Assembly: GCA_944390005.1 (NCBI GenBank)
Contig: CALXOJ010000014.1
Coordinates: 1 to 33,689 of the forward strand
Reading direction: 5' to 3'
Length of the DNA: 33,689 nucleotides
Source of the DNA: an uncultured Spirochaetota bacterium
GTDB taxonomy: Bacteria; Spirochaetota; Spirochaetia; JAFGXN01
Under the pieces are notes generated by a model that had not been told where the DNA came from, did not search any database, and worked only from the letters and a program-made list of their open reading frames with translations. Every line of letters starts with the position of its first letter. The stretch's first letter is position 1. This document shows, piece by piece, positions 15,326 through 33,689 of the stretch. The translations under genes and the position numbers were made by a program.

Positions 15326-16042
15326 ATGCATAATTCGATTTTGTTCGTTGCTCCCGATTCGGAAAAAAGACAGCAGCTGTTCAAAACGTTGTGGAAAGCG
15401 GGCTTTCCTGTTCGTTGCTTTTTGAATCCGGACGATGTTTTTGATTTTGTTCGCAATGATCCTCCTGCTTTGATTTTGATTCAGAATCGTTTGCCTAAAG
15501 GAAATACGGTGCAATTTATTTCAGCGCTCAGAGAATTTTCAAATGTGCAAGTTGCCGTGCTGGTCTCAGATTTTGAAGAAAGCGAAATTTCGGCATCGCT
15601 TCAAGCCGGAGCGGATACTTTTTTACCGTGGAGTATTTCGTCGTACTTGTTCCTTGATTGGATTAAGGCTCTTTTTCGGCGCATTTCCCGTTATACGATT
15701 GACTCCGAACAAGGGAAAATTTTTTTCCGCGGTTTCGTTTTTCATGAGAAAGGGCGCTATCTGGAATATCACCAGCAAAAAATTCGGATTGCTTCCAAGG
15801 AATTCGATGTACTGCAAGTTTTGCTGAAGAATCCGGGGAAACAGTTGACGTCAAAGTATATCTATTCTCAGGTGTGGGGAGAAGTTTTCGGCGATATTTC
15901 GACTGTCGGCGTTCACATCAAACGCATCAAATTGAAGTTGGCTCGCTATGATAAGTATCCGTTTATCACCAATGTGTACAGATCCGGTTATATGTTTGAT
16001 AAAAAGTGTCTGGAATCCGTTCCCGGCGAATCAAAAAATTAA
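15326..16042 (+). CDS. OmpR-type DNA-binding regulator with degenerate (non-phosphorylatable) receiver domain
   Basis: The 238-residue product has a receiver-like domain (about 1-120) and an OmpR/PhoB winged helix (about 125-226; IASKEFDVLQVLLKNPGKQLTSKYIYSQVWG ... VGVHIKRIKLKL ... FITNVYRSGYMF). Aligned by eye to CheY, the receiver has lost its chemistry. The acidic pair is A9-P10, the phosphoacceptor Asp is Q53 (in LIQNRLPKG) and the conserved Lys is P101 (FLPWS). Only the Ser/Thr switch remains as S81. It therefore probably acts without phosphorylation, through dimerisation or a ligand. The start follows ggagagag, 8 bases after the PG0541-like gene, so it belongs to the efflux operon. No histidine kinase is nearby. 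Targets are unknown; the efflux operon or the downstream glyA leader are candidates. Confidence 0.88.
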   Translation: MHNSILFVAPDSEKRQQLFKTLWKAGFPVRCFLNPDDVFDFVRNDPPALILIQNRLPKGNTVQFISALREFSNVQVAVLVSDFEESEISASLQAGADTFLPWSISSYLFLDWIKALFRRISRYTIDSEQGKIFFRGFVFHEKGRYLEYHQQKIRIASKEFDVLQVLLKNPGKQLTSKYIYSQVWGEVFGDISTVGVHIKRIKLKLARYDKYPFITNVYRSGYMFDKKCLESVPGESKN

Positions 16043-16059
16043 CGATCCTGTCGGAAAAA

Positions 16060-16102
16060 CCCTTGTCAACGATTTGTTTTTATGTTAAATCATAGACAAG
16101 GG
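16060..16102 (+). promoter_or_regulatory. Two-part stem-loop / inverted repeat at the head of the glyA leader, overlapping a possible promoter
   Basis: The outer arms cccttgtc (16060-16067) and gacaaggg (16095-16102) are perfect complements. Inside, after an aac/ata internal loop, gattt (16071-16075) pairs with aaatc (16087-16091) around an 11-base loop. As RNA this would sequester the Shine-Dalgarno of the small leader ORF; as DNA it could be an operator. The same stretch holds a possible promoter: ttgtca (16063-16068), 16 bases, ttaaat (16085-16090). Confidence 0.6.
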
Positions 16103-16110
16103 AGGTGCTT

Positions 16111-16245
16111 ATGAAAGCTTATTCTTTTATCCTCCTTATGTCACGCCCGAAAGGGCTTTTAATAACAAGAGGCTTCGGCCTCTTCTTTTCGTATTTTCGG
16201 AGGGAGTATGTCGGTTCTGGATTACATCAAAGAGAAAGGCGCTGA
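16111..16245 (+). CDS. Putative 44-residue leader ORF upstream of and overlapping glyA
   Basis: The ATG at 16111 is preceded by a strong Shine-Dalgarno (gggaggtg) with 4-5 bases of spacing. The frame reads MKAYSFILLMSRPKGLLITR, continues through two hairpins and stops at 16245, 35 bases inside glyA in another frame. The first part is hydrophobic; the middle is simply the translation of hairpin sequence. No run of diagnostic codons (such as repeated Ser or Gly) is present, so a classical amino-acid-sensing leader is not evident. It may be a genuine leader peptide coupling translation to the downstream hairpins, or a fortuitous frame with a ribosome site. No protein family is recognised. Confidence 0.35.
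   Translation: MKAYSFILLMSRPKGLLITRGFGLFFSYFRREYVGSGLHQRERR
16131..16137 (+). promoter_or_regulatory. Anti-Shine-Dalgarno element in the glyA leader
   Basis: The sequence cctcctt is complementary to the leader ORF ribosome site (aagggagg, 16098-16105, one bulge) and also to the glyA ribosome site (ggaggg, 16199-16204). It could pair with either one, giving two mutually exclusive structures. Confidence 0.45.
16145..16160 (+). terminator. Short GNRA hairpin with T-run in the glyA leader
   Basis: The stem gccc/gggc (16145-16148, 16153-16156) closes a gaaa tetraloop and is followed by tttt. It is weak alone, but lies 10 bases before a stronger hairpin and may be part of a tandem terminator. Confidence 0.5.
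16167..16197 (+). terminator. UUCG-capped terminator-like hairpin immediately upstream of glyA
   Basis: A perfect 7-bp stem, aagaggc (16167-16173) and gcctctt (16178-16184), closes a highly stable ttcg tetraloop and is followed by the T-rich tract cttttcgtatttt. It ends two bases before the glyA ribosome site, leaving no room for a promoter between them. It can end the efflux operon, but because glyA transcription must cross it, it is best read as a conditional terminator (attenuator). Confidence 0.75.
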
Positions 16246-17716
16246 AAATGTTTCGGAGGGAATGATCGCTTATTGGGCGTCGCTGGAAAAGGTTGCGGAG
16301 ACGGCTCCGAATGTTGCGGCTTCGATCGTCAAAGAGTTGGAATCGCAGCGTTCGTATTTGAAGTTGATTGCCAGCGAAAACTTTTCGTCGCTGTCGACAC
16401 AGTTAGCAATGGGGAATCTTTTGACCGATAAATATTCCGAAGGGATTCCTTACCATCGATTTTATGCCGGATGCGATAATGTCGACGATATTGAAGCTTA
16501 CGCCGCTGAGCAGGCGTGCAAACTTTTTGGAGCCGAACACGCTTACGTTCAGCCTCACAGCGGAGCTGACGCCAACTTATGCGCTTATTGGGCTATTTTA
16601 AACGAAAAAATTCAAGTCCCGATGATGGAGCAGTTCGGAGAGACTAACCCGTCGAAGCTTTCACAGGCTGACTTCAATCGAATTCGGGAGAAGTGCGGAA
16701 ATCAGCGTTTGCTCGGATTGGATTATTATTCGGGCGGTCATCTGACGCACGGTTACCGTTCCAATGTTTCGGCGCAGATGTTTGAAGCGTATTCGTATAC
16801 GGTCAATAAAGAAACCGGTCTGCTTGATTACGATGAAATCGAACGGCAGGCAGAAGAAATTAAGCCGTTGATTCTGCTGGCAGGCTATTCGGCTTATCCG
16901 CGTCTCATTAATTTCAAACGGATGAAAGAGATTGCCGATAAGGTCGGCGCGGTGTTTATGGTGGATATGGCCCATTTTGCCGGTTTGGTTGCCGGCGGCG
17001 TTTTGACCGGCGAATACAATCCGGTCGCTTACGCCGATGTTGTGACGACGACAACACACAAGACATTGAGAGGTCCGCGCGGCGGGTTGGTTCTGTGTAA
17101 GAAAGAGTTTGCCGATTCCGTTGACAAAGGATGCCCGCTTGTCATCGGCGGACCGCTCCCGCATGTCATGGCAGCAAAAGCGGTTGCTTTTACCGAGGCC
17201 AATCGCCCGGAATATAAAAAATACGCTGCCGACATTGTGAAAAACTGCCGGACGATGGCGCAGGCGTGCATGGATTTGGGAATGAAAATCGCTACCGGAG
17301 GAACAGATAATCACCTGTTTTTAATCGACGTCACCGGATTTGGTTTGAACGGCCGACAGGCGGAGAGCGTTTTGCGCGAGTGCGGGATTACCCTTAACCG
17401 CAATGCGCTTCCGTTTGACCCGAACGGACCGTGGTATACCAGCGGTCTGAGAATCGGAACGGCCGCTGTCACGACATTGGGAATGGGCGAGGCTGAAATG
17501 AAAGAAATTGCTTCCGTTATTTGCTTCGTACTGTCGCAGACGAAGCCGACGGAGATTAAAACCGGAGAGAAAGCGGGAACTCTTAGCAAGTCCAAGTATG
17601 AAATTCCGGCTGAAGCAGCAAAAGAGGCCAAAGAGCGGGTGCAGAGTCTTTTGCACCGTTTCCCCGTTTATCCCGAATTGGATTTAGAAGCGTTAAAAAA
17701 ACGGTTTATCGGTTGA
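16208..17716 (+). CDS. glyA: Serine hydroxymethyltransferase, long spirochaete/chlamydia-type
   Basis: This PLP enzyme interconverts serine and glycine while loading tetrahydrofolate with a one-carbon unit, feeding purine, thymidylate and methionine synthesis in the cytosol. The PLP-lysine motif TTTTHKTLRGPRGG gives K285, and MVDMAHFAGLVAGG (251-264) contains the PLP-binding Asp. The protein has 502 residues, compared with about 415-430 in E. coli. Extra sequence lies near residues 128-175 (after ANLCAYWAIL, up to LGLDYYSGGHLTHG), and the N-terminus is extended, as in Treponema and Chlamydia SHMTs. The ATG at 16208 follows ggagggagt at good spacing. The gene stands behind a structured leader and is followed by a terminator; the promoter for the next operon overlaps its stop codon. 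Confidence 0.97.
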   Translation: MSVLDYIKEKGAENVSEGMIAYWASLEKVAETAPNVAASIVKELESQRSYLKLIASENFSSLSTQLAMGNLLTDKYSEGIPYHRFYAGCDNVDDIEAYAAEQACKLFGAEHAYVQPHSGADANLCAYWAILNEKIQVPMMEQFGETNPSKLSQADFNRIREKCGNQRLLGLDYYSGGHLTHGYRSNVSAQMFEAYSYTVNKETGLLDYDEIERQAEEIKPLILLAGYSAYPRLINFKRMKEIADKVGAVFMVDMAHFAGLVAGGVLTGEYNPVAYADVVTTTTHKTLRGPRGGLVLCKKEFADSVDKGCPLVIGGPLPHVMAAKAVAFTEANRPEYKKYAADIVKNCRTMAQACMDLGMKIATGGTDNHLFLIDVTGFGLNGRQAESVLRECGITLNRNALPFDPNGPWYTSGLRIGTAAVTTLGMGEAEMKEIASVICFVLSQTKPTEIKTGEKAGTLSKSKYEIPAEAAKEAKERVQSLLHRFPVYPELDLEALKKRFIG

Positions 17717-17741
17717 CTGTTTTTCCGTTTTATGGTATAAA
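17713..17741 (+). promoter_or_regulatory. Consensus-like extended -10 promoter for the rimP-nusA-infB operon
   Basis: -35 ttgact (17713-17718), exactly 17 bases of spacer, -10 tataaa (17736-17741), with an extended -10 tgg at 17733-17735. The -35 contains the glyA stop codon (17714-17716). The predicted start is about 17748. This is the best promoter match in the window. Confidence 0.85.
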
Positions 17742-17757
17742 ATTACCGGAATCTTTG

Positions 17758-17789
17758 AAAAAAGAAGTCGTTTTTCGACTTCTTTTTTT
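17758..17789 (+). terminator. Strong terminator hairpin just downstream of the rimP promoter (glyA terminator / operon attenuator)
   Basis: The left arm aaaagaagtcg (17760-17770) and right arm cgacttctttt (17776-17786) pair perfectly around a 5-T loop; flanking A and T bases allow about 13 pairs, followed by a T-run to 17789. It lies after glyA but also about ten bases after the predicted start of the rimP operon promoter, so operon transcripts must read through it. Confidence 0.9.
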
Positions 17790-17805
17790 GTATCGAGAGG
17801 TTGTT

Positions 17806-32083: not shown

Positions 32084-33689
32084 GAAACCTTTTTTTTTAA
32101 AGGCGATTGTTTTGCTTCTGTTTTTCAGCTTTCCGGCAGCCGCGCAGGAAACTCTTCCGAGTGATAAAACGATAGTCGAAACGCAGTCGGACGACGTACC
32201 GGCGGAAACGGCTGAAACAACAGACGGACAGCCGGCTGCCGCCGGAGATTCGGAAAAGACCGCTCCTGCAGCCGCGGCGTCTTCTTCGGCCGCTGCCGCC
32301 TCTCAAAGCACGGCGCAAAGTCGGGAACCCGATTATGAAGAAATTTTTCGCTGGGGAATGGATGATCAGATTCTTTCGACATTAAAAACGCTGACTGAAG
32401 AAAAAAAGACCGTCCCAGCGGAGTTAATTGACCGACTGTATGCCGAAACGCTCTCGGAGAGCGTAAAAGCTGCCTGTCTCGATTATTGGCGGGAGACAAG
32501 AAACGCGCTTCACTATGATGTGGTTTTAGATAAATGGAGCGAGTTGCCGCAGCGAACGACCGCGTTGCAAAGCGCTTCTTTAAAGTATCTGTTTGCGTTT
32601 TTGCCGGAAAAACAGGATGAAAAAACCGTCGGCGTTCTAAGCGATGTGCTTCGTTATGCCGATTTTAAGGTGCAGTCGGAGTTGATGGATCTGATTGCCG
32701 AAAAGGGGATGACAGTATTTGAACCGGTTTTAACAGTACTCGGGCAAACAAGCGAAGATCGGCCCGCTTTGCAGGCGGCGGTTTTGAAAACTCTCGGAAA
32801 ATTAAAGACGCCGGACGCATTTGAAACGTTGAAGGCTCGGTTGGCCGATCCCGATGCATCTACCGATATTCGTATGGCGGCTGCCGAAGGGTTGGGCGGT
32901 TACGGTACGCCTGAGGCTTTTTTGGCGTTGGAGCCGTTTATGAGCGAATCCAACATTTATTTGAGGTTGAGAGTTTTTCAGGCGCTGCTGTCGACCGACA
33001 ATCCGAACCTCTCTCATGTCATTGAACAGGGAGGAAAAGATGCCTATTGGCAAATCCGACGCGATGTTTTTCGTTTTATCGGAGATCACAATTTGACCGA
33101 ATACGCGCCGATGCTGTTGTTTAAGGCGAAAAACGAACCGGAACGCACTGTCCGCGATACCGTTTTGCGGGAATTGGGGAAGATGAAGACGGCGGAAGCG
33201 CGTTCTTATTTACAGGAAACGGTTCGTAACGATAAAAATTCCATGCCGACGCGGAAAATCGCTTTCGATGCGCTTGCCGGATTTCAGTACGCTTCTCAAA
33301 TTCCGTTTTTGATGGATTTGTGGAGCCGCTATAAGGAAAAACCTTCCGGTACCATTGCCGAGCACATGGCGATGAGACTTTCCGTCACCAAAGAGGCCGG
33401 ATTAGATGTCATGTATGAACTGTTTTTTCTTTCTCCGGTCGGATTGTTTAAGGTGTATGCAATTCGAGGAATTGCTTTGAACGGGTCCTCTTCGTGCCGC
33501 GCCGAGATCGAAAAACTGCAGCAGAGTGACCGCAACGATTTGTTGGCGCGGGAAGCGCGGAAGATCGATTACGGAGCTTCGACGACAGAAACTCCGTCAG
33601 CAGAAGTTCCGTCAGCAGAAACTCCGACAGCAGAAACTCCGACAGCAGAAACTCCGACAGCAGAAACTCCGACAGCAGAAACTCCGACA
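32076..33689 (+). CDS. Secreted HEAT-repeat protein with C-terminal AETPT repeats, 3' partial
   Basis: The frame is open from the GTG at 32076 to the right edge (538 codons, no stop). The start is supported by aggag eight bases upstream and a signal peptide (KPFFLKAIVLLLFFSFPAAAQ). An Ala/Ser/Thr/Glu-rich linker follows (to about residue 85). Then come repeated helix pairs of HEAT type, for example LQAAVLKTLGKLKTPDAFETL, IRMAAAEGLGGYGTPEAFLAL, LRLRVFQALLSTDNP and VRDTVLRELGKMKTAEA. These form an alpha-solenoid used for protein binding. The visible end is a Thr/Pro/Glu/Ala pentapeptide repeat, probably a flexible spacer in the periplasm or at the surface. It overlaps murJ by eight bases and closes the visible operon. 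The specific function is unknown; an envelope-biogenesis role is inferred only from its neighbours. Confidence 0.85.
   Translation, partial: MTKKPFFLKAIVLLLFFSFPAAAQETLPSDKTIVETQSDDVPAETAETTDGQPAAAGDSEKTAPAAAASSSAAAASQSTAQSREPDYEEIFRWGMDDQILSTLKTLTEEKKTVPAELIDRLYAETLSESVKAACLDYWRETRNALHYDVVLDKWSELPQRTTALQSASLKYLFAFLPEKQDEKTVGVLSDVLRYADFKVQSELMDLIAEKGMTVFEPVLTVLGQTSEDRPALQAAVLKTLGKLKTPDAFETLKARLADPDASTDIRMAAAEGLGGYGTPEAFLALEPFMSESNIYLRLRVFQALLSTDNPNLSHVIEQGGKDAYWQIRRDVFRFIGDHNLTEYAPMLLFKAKNEPERTVRDTVLRELGKMKTAEARSYLQETVRNDKNSMPTRKIAFDALAGFQYASQIPFLMDLWSRYKEKPSGTIAEHMAMRLSVTKEAGLDVMYELFFLSPVGLFKVYAIRGIALNGSSSCRAEIEKLQQSDRNDLLAREARKIDYGASTTETPSAEVPSAETPTAETPTAETPTAETPTAETPT
33585..33689 (+). repeat. 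15-bp in-frame tandem repeat (7 units) encoding AETPT
   Basis: Seven consecutive 15-base units (consensus gcagaaactccgaca) end exactly at the right edge. The first two vary (aca at the start, tca ends, gtt for act) and the last five are identical. They encode A-E-T-P-T pentapeptides at the end of the HEAT-repeat gene. The true number is unknown because the repeat runs off the window. Confidence 0.95.

Follow-up and report, generated by a model that had tools for sequence, protein, structure and literature searches.

A possible leaky intrinsic attenuator in a lineage-specific leader upstream of glyA in an uncultured spirochaete

The 165 bases that separate a response regulator gene from glyA, which serves glycine synthesis, in an uncultured spirochaete contain two short, T-tailed hairpins, named H2 and H3 here. 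Our tentative reading, which could well be right, is that this lineage-specific 5′ leader acts as a leaky intrinsic attenuator. Transcription would start at about 16096 to 16098 from a modest promoter at 16063 to 16091, and the transcript would run through both hairpins, which are plainly present in the sequence. A share of the polymerases would stop at H2 or H3 while the remainder read into glyA, and the hairpins may thereby set or tune the level of glyA. They may also catch read-through from the response regulator operon. With a T-tailed pair positioned 3′ of a promoter-like site, a 5′ attenuator is a reasonable interpretation. The leader appears to be a real but ordinary kind of control, with weak terminators.

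The glyA leader and its neighborhood

The window, i.e., the whole stretch of 33,689 nucleotides that was analyzed, is contig C14 of genome G000 (1.95 Mb). For comparison, the genus offered two genomes (G000 and its congener G001), and the family and the order three each, the third being G002 from a sister genus. The leader pieces named in the original prediction, which was made from this DNA alone, were all readable at or near the places given for them (Table 1). The upstream response regulator was matched by Pfam Trans_reg_C above the cut-off and by Response_reg slightly below it (28.7 of 30.2 bits), with NCBIfam matches under the curated cut-offs. It is preceded by TolC-like, adaptor, RND, and PG0541 genes, several of these names coming from matches below curated cut-offs. 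On the downstream side, glyA is followed by rimP and then by nusA. In a glyA tree, a weakly supported grouping (81) joined the G000 gene to that of G002 and to four Spirochaetota sequences. At the ends of the window, positions 1 to 148 and the last ∼110 bases (33577 to 33689) each had more than one match in contig C15 of G001; these are short repeats near contig ends, the right one within an ORF that is left open at the contig end.

Table 1. Features of the glyA leader and the genes on either side (window coordinates)
Feature	Coordinates	Strand	Remarks
OmpR/PhoB-like response regulator gene	15326..16042	+	Ends the upstream TolC-adaptor-RND-PG0541 group
First (two-part) stem-loop, arms CCCTTGTC/GACAAGGG	16060..16102	+	Overlaps candidate promoter; not conserved in G001
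Candidate sigma-70 type promoter, TTGTCA-16/17-TTAAAT/TAAATC	16063..16091	+	Modest matrix score; same site in G001
Hairpin H1	16099..16137	+	Predicted fold; small ORF ribosome site and ATG covered by CCTCCTT
Small ORF, 44 aa, Shine-Dalgarno GGGAGG, ATG at 16111	16111..16245	+	Sequence; overlaps glyA
CCTCCTT element	16131..16137	+	Sequence
Hairpin H2, GCCC-GAAA-GGGC (GNRA loop), 16145-16156, plus TTTT	16145..16160	+	Weak terminator-like
Hairpin H3, AAGAGGC-TTCG-GCCTCTT (UUCG cap), 16167-16184, plus interrupted T-tail	16167..16197	+	Weak terminator-like
Hairpin H4, T-tail paired with glyA Shine-Dalgarno	16184..16205	+	Predicted fold; unchanged in G001
glyA Shine-Dalgarno and ATG	16199..16206; ATG 16208	+	Sequence
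glyA, serine hydroxymethyltransferase, 502 aa	16208..17716	+	PF00464 above cut-off

Terminator-like hairpins and the promoter-like site ahead of them

H2 with its T-run and the UUCG-capped H3 with its T-rich tail (CTTTTCGTATTTT), as described in the original prediction, are real and beyond chance. Two T-tailed hairpins scoring −8 or better occurred together in none of 1000 dinucleotide shuffles, and at least one occurred in 12 of the 1000, which favors an attenuator. Between H3 and the ATG of glyA there are 23 bases. As terminators, both hairpins are weak. They were ranked within a sample of 45 T-tailed hairpins in sense orientation, taken from the gaps between predicted genes in 16 G000 stretches plus the window (∼354 kb), using simple custom versions of a gene caller, a promoter matrix, and a terminator score, the last with a d'Aubenton-Carafa type formula. 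While 28 of the 45 scored 17.8 or higher, H2 ranked 33rd with −2.9 and H3 ranked 35th with −7.6, low values that go with short stems and interrupted tails. Such weakness also favors an attenuator; Naville and Gautheret, in the passages that deal with stability, describe 5′ terminators as having a lower average stability than 3′ terminators (PMC2965389).

The weak scores are also in keeping with the main alternative, possible but doubtful, in which H2 and H3 are tandem leaky terminators that close the RND efflux/response-regulator operon, and glyA, having no promoter of its own, is fed by read-through. Several observations bear on it. First, H2 and H3 lie 102 and 124 bases past the upstream stop, respectively. 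Among the 40 other sample hairpins with a same-strand upstream gene, 29 were within 33 bases of the stop and one was at 42, which argues against operon-end terminators. The remaining 10 were more than 80 bases away, and eight of these were at 102 or more, a count in favor of operon-end terminators and against an attenuator. The distance therefore leans to a 5′ leader but is not decisive. Second, the H3 pattern occurs once each in G000, G001, and G002, and in G002 the hairpin has an uninterrupted T-tail and lies 3′ of an Hsp20 gene, between converging ORFs. This is a 3′-terminator position, as the operon-end reading would have it, and means that an H3-type hairpin is a normal terminator sequence within the family. 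Third, hairpins 11 to 25 bases before a start were also found at rimP, C2:67775, C3:12213 (behind tRNA-Met), C3:39222, and C3:50382 (between rplI and dnaB), so that a terminator this close to a gene start is in itself nothing unusual here. In the sample, some genes, such as those at C3:50382 and C3:39222, start 19 to 25 bases past a hairpin, leaving no room for a promoter, which favors operon-end terminators. Finally, genes of the upstream RND/response-regulator group were seen before glyA in just one of 80 relatives' loci, L082 (the flanks covered up to 3 kb, in several cases less), which argues against such terminators since the operon coupling would have to be recent. In L082 (1 to 3001, from a Treponema genome), RND and PG0541 genes lie immediately 5′ of glyA. 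The leaky attenuator and the operon-end terminators are not mutually exclusive.

The two readings also differ in whether glyA has its own promoter. When a matrix was trained on the same G000 sample, using 70 regions upstream of divergent genes, it found the motif TTGACA-17-TATAAT. The best leader site, TTGTCA at 16063 with TTAAAT at a spacer of 16, scored 6.3 and ranked 61st among 168305 pairings of site and spacer on the + strand; at the same place in G001, TTGCCA-17-TAAATC scored 8.7. A promoter-like site thus precedes the hairpins in both species, which supports an attenuator and argues against operon-end terminators. A second promoter-like site (16105 to 16133), also ahead of H2, scored 5.0. 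However, the promoter is weak, and this counts against an attenuator: 19% of 263 same-length coding stretches reached 6.3, and the best scores of the divergent upstream regions had a median of 12.1 (lower quartile, 6.1). Judged by its sequence, the promoter at 16063 to 16091 is plausible but unproven. In the matrix scan, no promoter-like site starting in 16110 to 16200 scored above about −0.6. Within the reach of the scan, therefore, there is no promoter between H3 and glyA and glyA transcription must pass H3, as had been predicted.

In these respects, the glyA leader resembles the 5′ intrinsic attenuators in the cataloguing passages of Naville and Gautheret (2010; PMC2965389): its weak T-tailed hairpins come after a candidate promoter and before the gene start. 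It differs from them in that no antiterminator partner or trigger was found, and its promoter is a candidate.

A related arrangement was observed at rimP, where a strong promoter-like sequence, TTGACT-17-TATAAA (score 14.1), overlaps the glyA stop, and an 11-bp hairpin (17759 to 17787) with a T-run ends 18 bases before the TTG start. This stretch (17713 to 17805) is a candidate rimP-nusA attenuator or glyA terminator. As the next gene downstream, rimP raises the idea of a NusA-type, factor-dependent attenuation common to glyA and rimP-nusA. Both leaders have a short hairpin and T-run near the start, rimP also has the order of promoter, T-tailed hairpin, and start, and the glyA hairpin is weak with an interrupted T-tail. 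In the passages concerned, the attenuator reported to be the most widespread is the rimP-leader (PMC2965389), and Bacillus subtilis NusA is described as autoregulated through attenuation (PMC12288461). However, the idea rests on adjacency and weak tails, and on inspection the hairpin before rimP, like H2 and H3, lacked the GGGc...gCCC stem motif described for the rimP-leader (PMC2965389, in the passage on that motif). The glyA leader thus differs from the rimP-leader both in this motif and in the gene that it precedes, and a shared NusA-type control seems very improbable.

Conservation and folding of the leader

The leader is ∼90% identical between G000 and G001. The H2 and H3 stems show no change in G001, which favors an attenuator; the H2 loop changes from GAAA to GGAA, and from 16151 on, the G001 leader has no substitution or deletion and one inserted base near 16164. 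Covarying pairs, which the original prediction had named as support for a regulatory RNA, were looked for in these two sequences, and no compensatory change was found in any leader stem, a result that counts against an attenuator. When an equal number of changes was placed at random, as many pairs were kept in 95% of the trials for H1, 67% for H1, H2, and H3 together, 22% for H2 and H3, 7% for H2, H3, and H4, and 40% for all four hairpins. Retention by chance in 22% and 40% of trials likewise weighs against an attenuator. An unusual conservation of the 3′ block of the leader was considered, with mixed results. The last 45 bases 5′ of glyA are identical in G001, which speaks for an attenuator and was seen at two of the other 25 gene starts in the window, whereas among the window's 55 identical runs of 50 bases or more, the 80-base one at 16151 to 16230 ranks only 33rd in length, which speaks against it. 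As far as the alignment with G001 can tell, conservation neither proves nor excludes a function of the hairpins, and it speaks against the first stem-loop and a leader peptide.

Of 394 class genomes searched, only two, G000 and G001, carry it, a further point against an attenuator. Short leader fragments were detected in 14 other class genomes (E, 0.00088 to 0.0094), and those inspected in three of the 14 (G002, G305, and G331) were a hairpin between converging ORFs, so wider conservation of the leader was not accepted. A repeated genomic element was also rejected, since within G000 the leader DNA has no match other than itself and the H3 pattern is not repeated. With respect to other glyA leaders, 80 of 83 glyA loci had at least 200 bases upstream, and a hairpin with a score of −10 or better ending no more than 60 bases before glyA was found in six of the 80 (G000, G001, L020, L029, L081, and L073) compared to none of 240 mononucleotide shuffles. 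T-tailed hairpins before glyA hence recur in a few lineages and are not the rule; their presence at these six loci favors an attenuator.

The leader folded better than its dinucleotide shuffles (z, −2.88; one of 200 shuffles equally good), as did, to a lesser degree, the presumed transcript from 16096 (z, −2.02; eight of 200); the G001 counterpart of this transcript had a z of −2.54. In the minimum-energy folds from both species, H2, H3, and H4 all form together, and no antiterminator competing with H3 was seen in these two sequences. The stem-loop at 16060 to 16102, proposed as an RNA element covering a ribosome site, fared poorly. G001 keeps nine of its 13 pairs, with substitutions at 16066, 16071, and 16072 and the loss of 16099 and 16100, and the broken stem was rejected both as an RNA element and as an operator palindrome. 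If the promoter at 16063 is used, this stem-loop would be mostly outside the transcript, and the leader would begin with H1. In the fold predicted for the presumed transcript, it is H1 (16099 to 16137) that covers the ribosome site, by way of CCTCCTT. The CCTCCTT element itself is present, and of the two ribosome sites with which it had been said to be able to pair, the fold pairs it with that of the small ORF. H1 keeps 11 of 14 pairs as aligned in G001, no better than randomly placed changes.

The small ORF was only partly borne out. Its strong Shine-Dalgarno and ATG are kept in both species, but the reading frame is not: G001 has two nonsynonymous changes in nine codons followed by a 1-base deletion, giving 16 aa instead of 44 aa. 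Leader-peptide attenuation, in which translation from 16111 would decide whether H1, H2, or H3 forms, draws on the conserved ribosome site and start, on their cover by H1, and on the ability of CCTCCTT to pair with either ribosome site. The codon changes and the frameshift argue against it, as does the lack of any regulatory codon run in the small ORF on inspection by eye, and we regard it as quite unlikely. More generally, the prediction of conditional termination by a riboswitch, leader peptide, or protein stands insofar as there is a T-tailed pair in the path of glyA transcription. The conditional part is unsupported because the one congener, G001, conserves neither the first stem-loop nor the small ORF, the stems lack compensatory change, and the hairpins are weak enough simply to leak.

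ZTP riboswitches before glyA in relatives

No Rfam model, including those for glycine, tetrahydrofolate, and other riboswitches and for T-boxes, matched the window at the gathering score. Below threshold, seven Rfam matches were obtained in 15900 to 16350, and every one was to a model of a snoRNA, microRNA, plastid RNA, or sRNA. The match with the best E, over the hairpins, was to BSR0709, a Brucella sRNA (E, 0.0073; 17.9 of 382 bits needed). The ZTP model RF01750 was absent among matches up to an E of 10 in the same stretch, and it gave no match at an E of 0.1, with stricter filters, in the G000 and G001 genomes. The leader therefore matches no riboswitch class in Rfam, as had been anticipated for the ZTP, glycine, and tetrahydrofolate types, and a diverged ZTP riboswitch in G000 was rejected for lack of an RF01750 match in these scans.

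In the sister genus, however, a ZTP-riboswitch-like element stands in front of glyA in G002 (L006 1380-1471, i.e., G002:C44:23278-23369; 32.6 bits and E of 0.001, below the 39-bit gathering score). A survey of 198 class genomes, drawn evenly, with E up to 0.1 gave 28 ZTP matches in 25 genomes, 16 of which were above the cut-off. For half of the matches (14 out of 28, in G002 and 13 other genomes), glyA follows at a short distance on the same strand, and 10 of these matches were above the cut-off; the remaining 14 matches had no glyA within the 1.5-kb flank. A scan of 20 glyA loci at the gathering score, comprising L004, L006, and 18 from the set of 80, revealed a ZTP riboswitch before glyA in three of them (L017, L023, and L024). 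The leader of glyA is thus a common control site here, which favors an attenuator. The ZMP/ZTP riboswitch (pfl motif, RF01750) occupies the same place before the same gene in these relatives, whereas the G000 and G001 leaders give no ZTP match. A link between the pfl motif and glyA is already published (PMC2864571, in the part on this motif). Our literature search found no paper on attenuation at glyA, or on ZTP riboswitches linked to glyA in spirochaetes, which is not proof of absence; the passages on RNA ends in Borrelia burgdorferi (PMC10319736) do not mention glyA.

Loss of the ZTP switch through loss of purH was considered and rejected. A purH match is present in both G000 (L145, G000:C4:41434-42603) and G001 (L144), so the ligand of the switch is probably still made. 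One in-frame TGA interrupts this match in both species, and in G000 the codons after it are ATG ATG, so that the two parts of the enzyme look like adjoining genes.

The contrast with G002 could also suggest that the glyA ZTP riboswitch was replaced within one family by an undescribed leader class, in which weak terminators in tandem are combined with CCTCCTT as an alternating anti-Shine-Dalgarno. This is unlikely; if true, sister genera would control glyA by two unrelated RNA devices. That a new metabolite riboswitch took over from the ZTP riboswitch is very unlikely. The ZTP-like element in G002, unmatched in G000 and G001, and the better-than-shuffled fold of the leader are consistent with it. 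However, only ∼50 bases of the presumed transcript come before H2, their single hairpin is kept no better than chance, and the two sequences show no covariation.

If the leader is an attenuator, as we tentatively propose, glyA control that involves no known riboswitch gains one more example, from a lineage that has been little studied. Of greatest interest is the contrast to the sister genus with its ZTP-like element; this contrast would be a small natural example of the turnover of RNA control at one gene.
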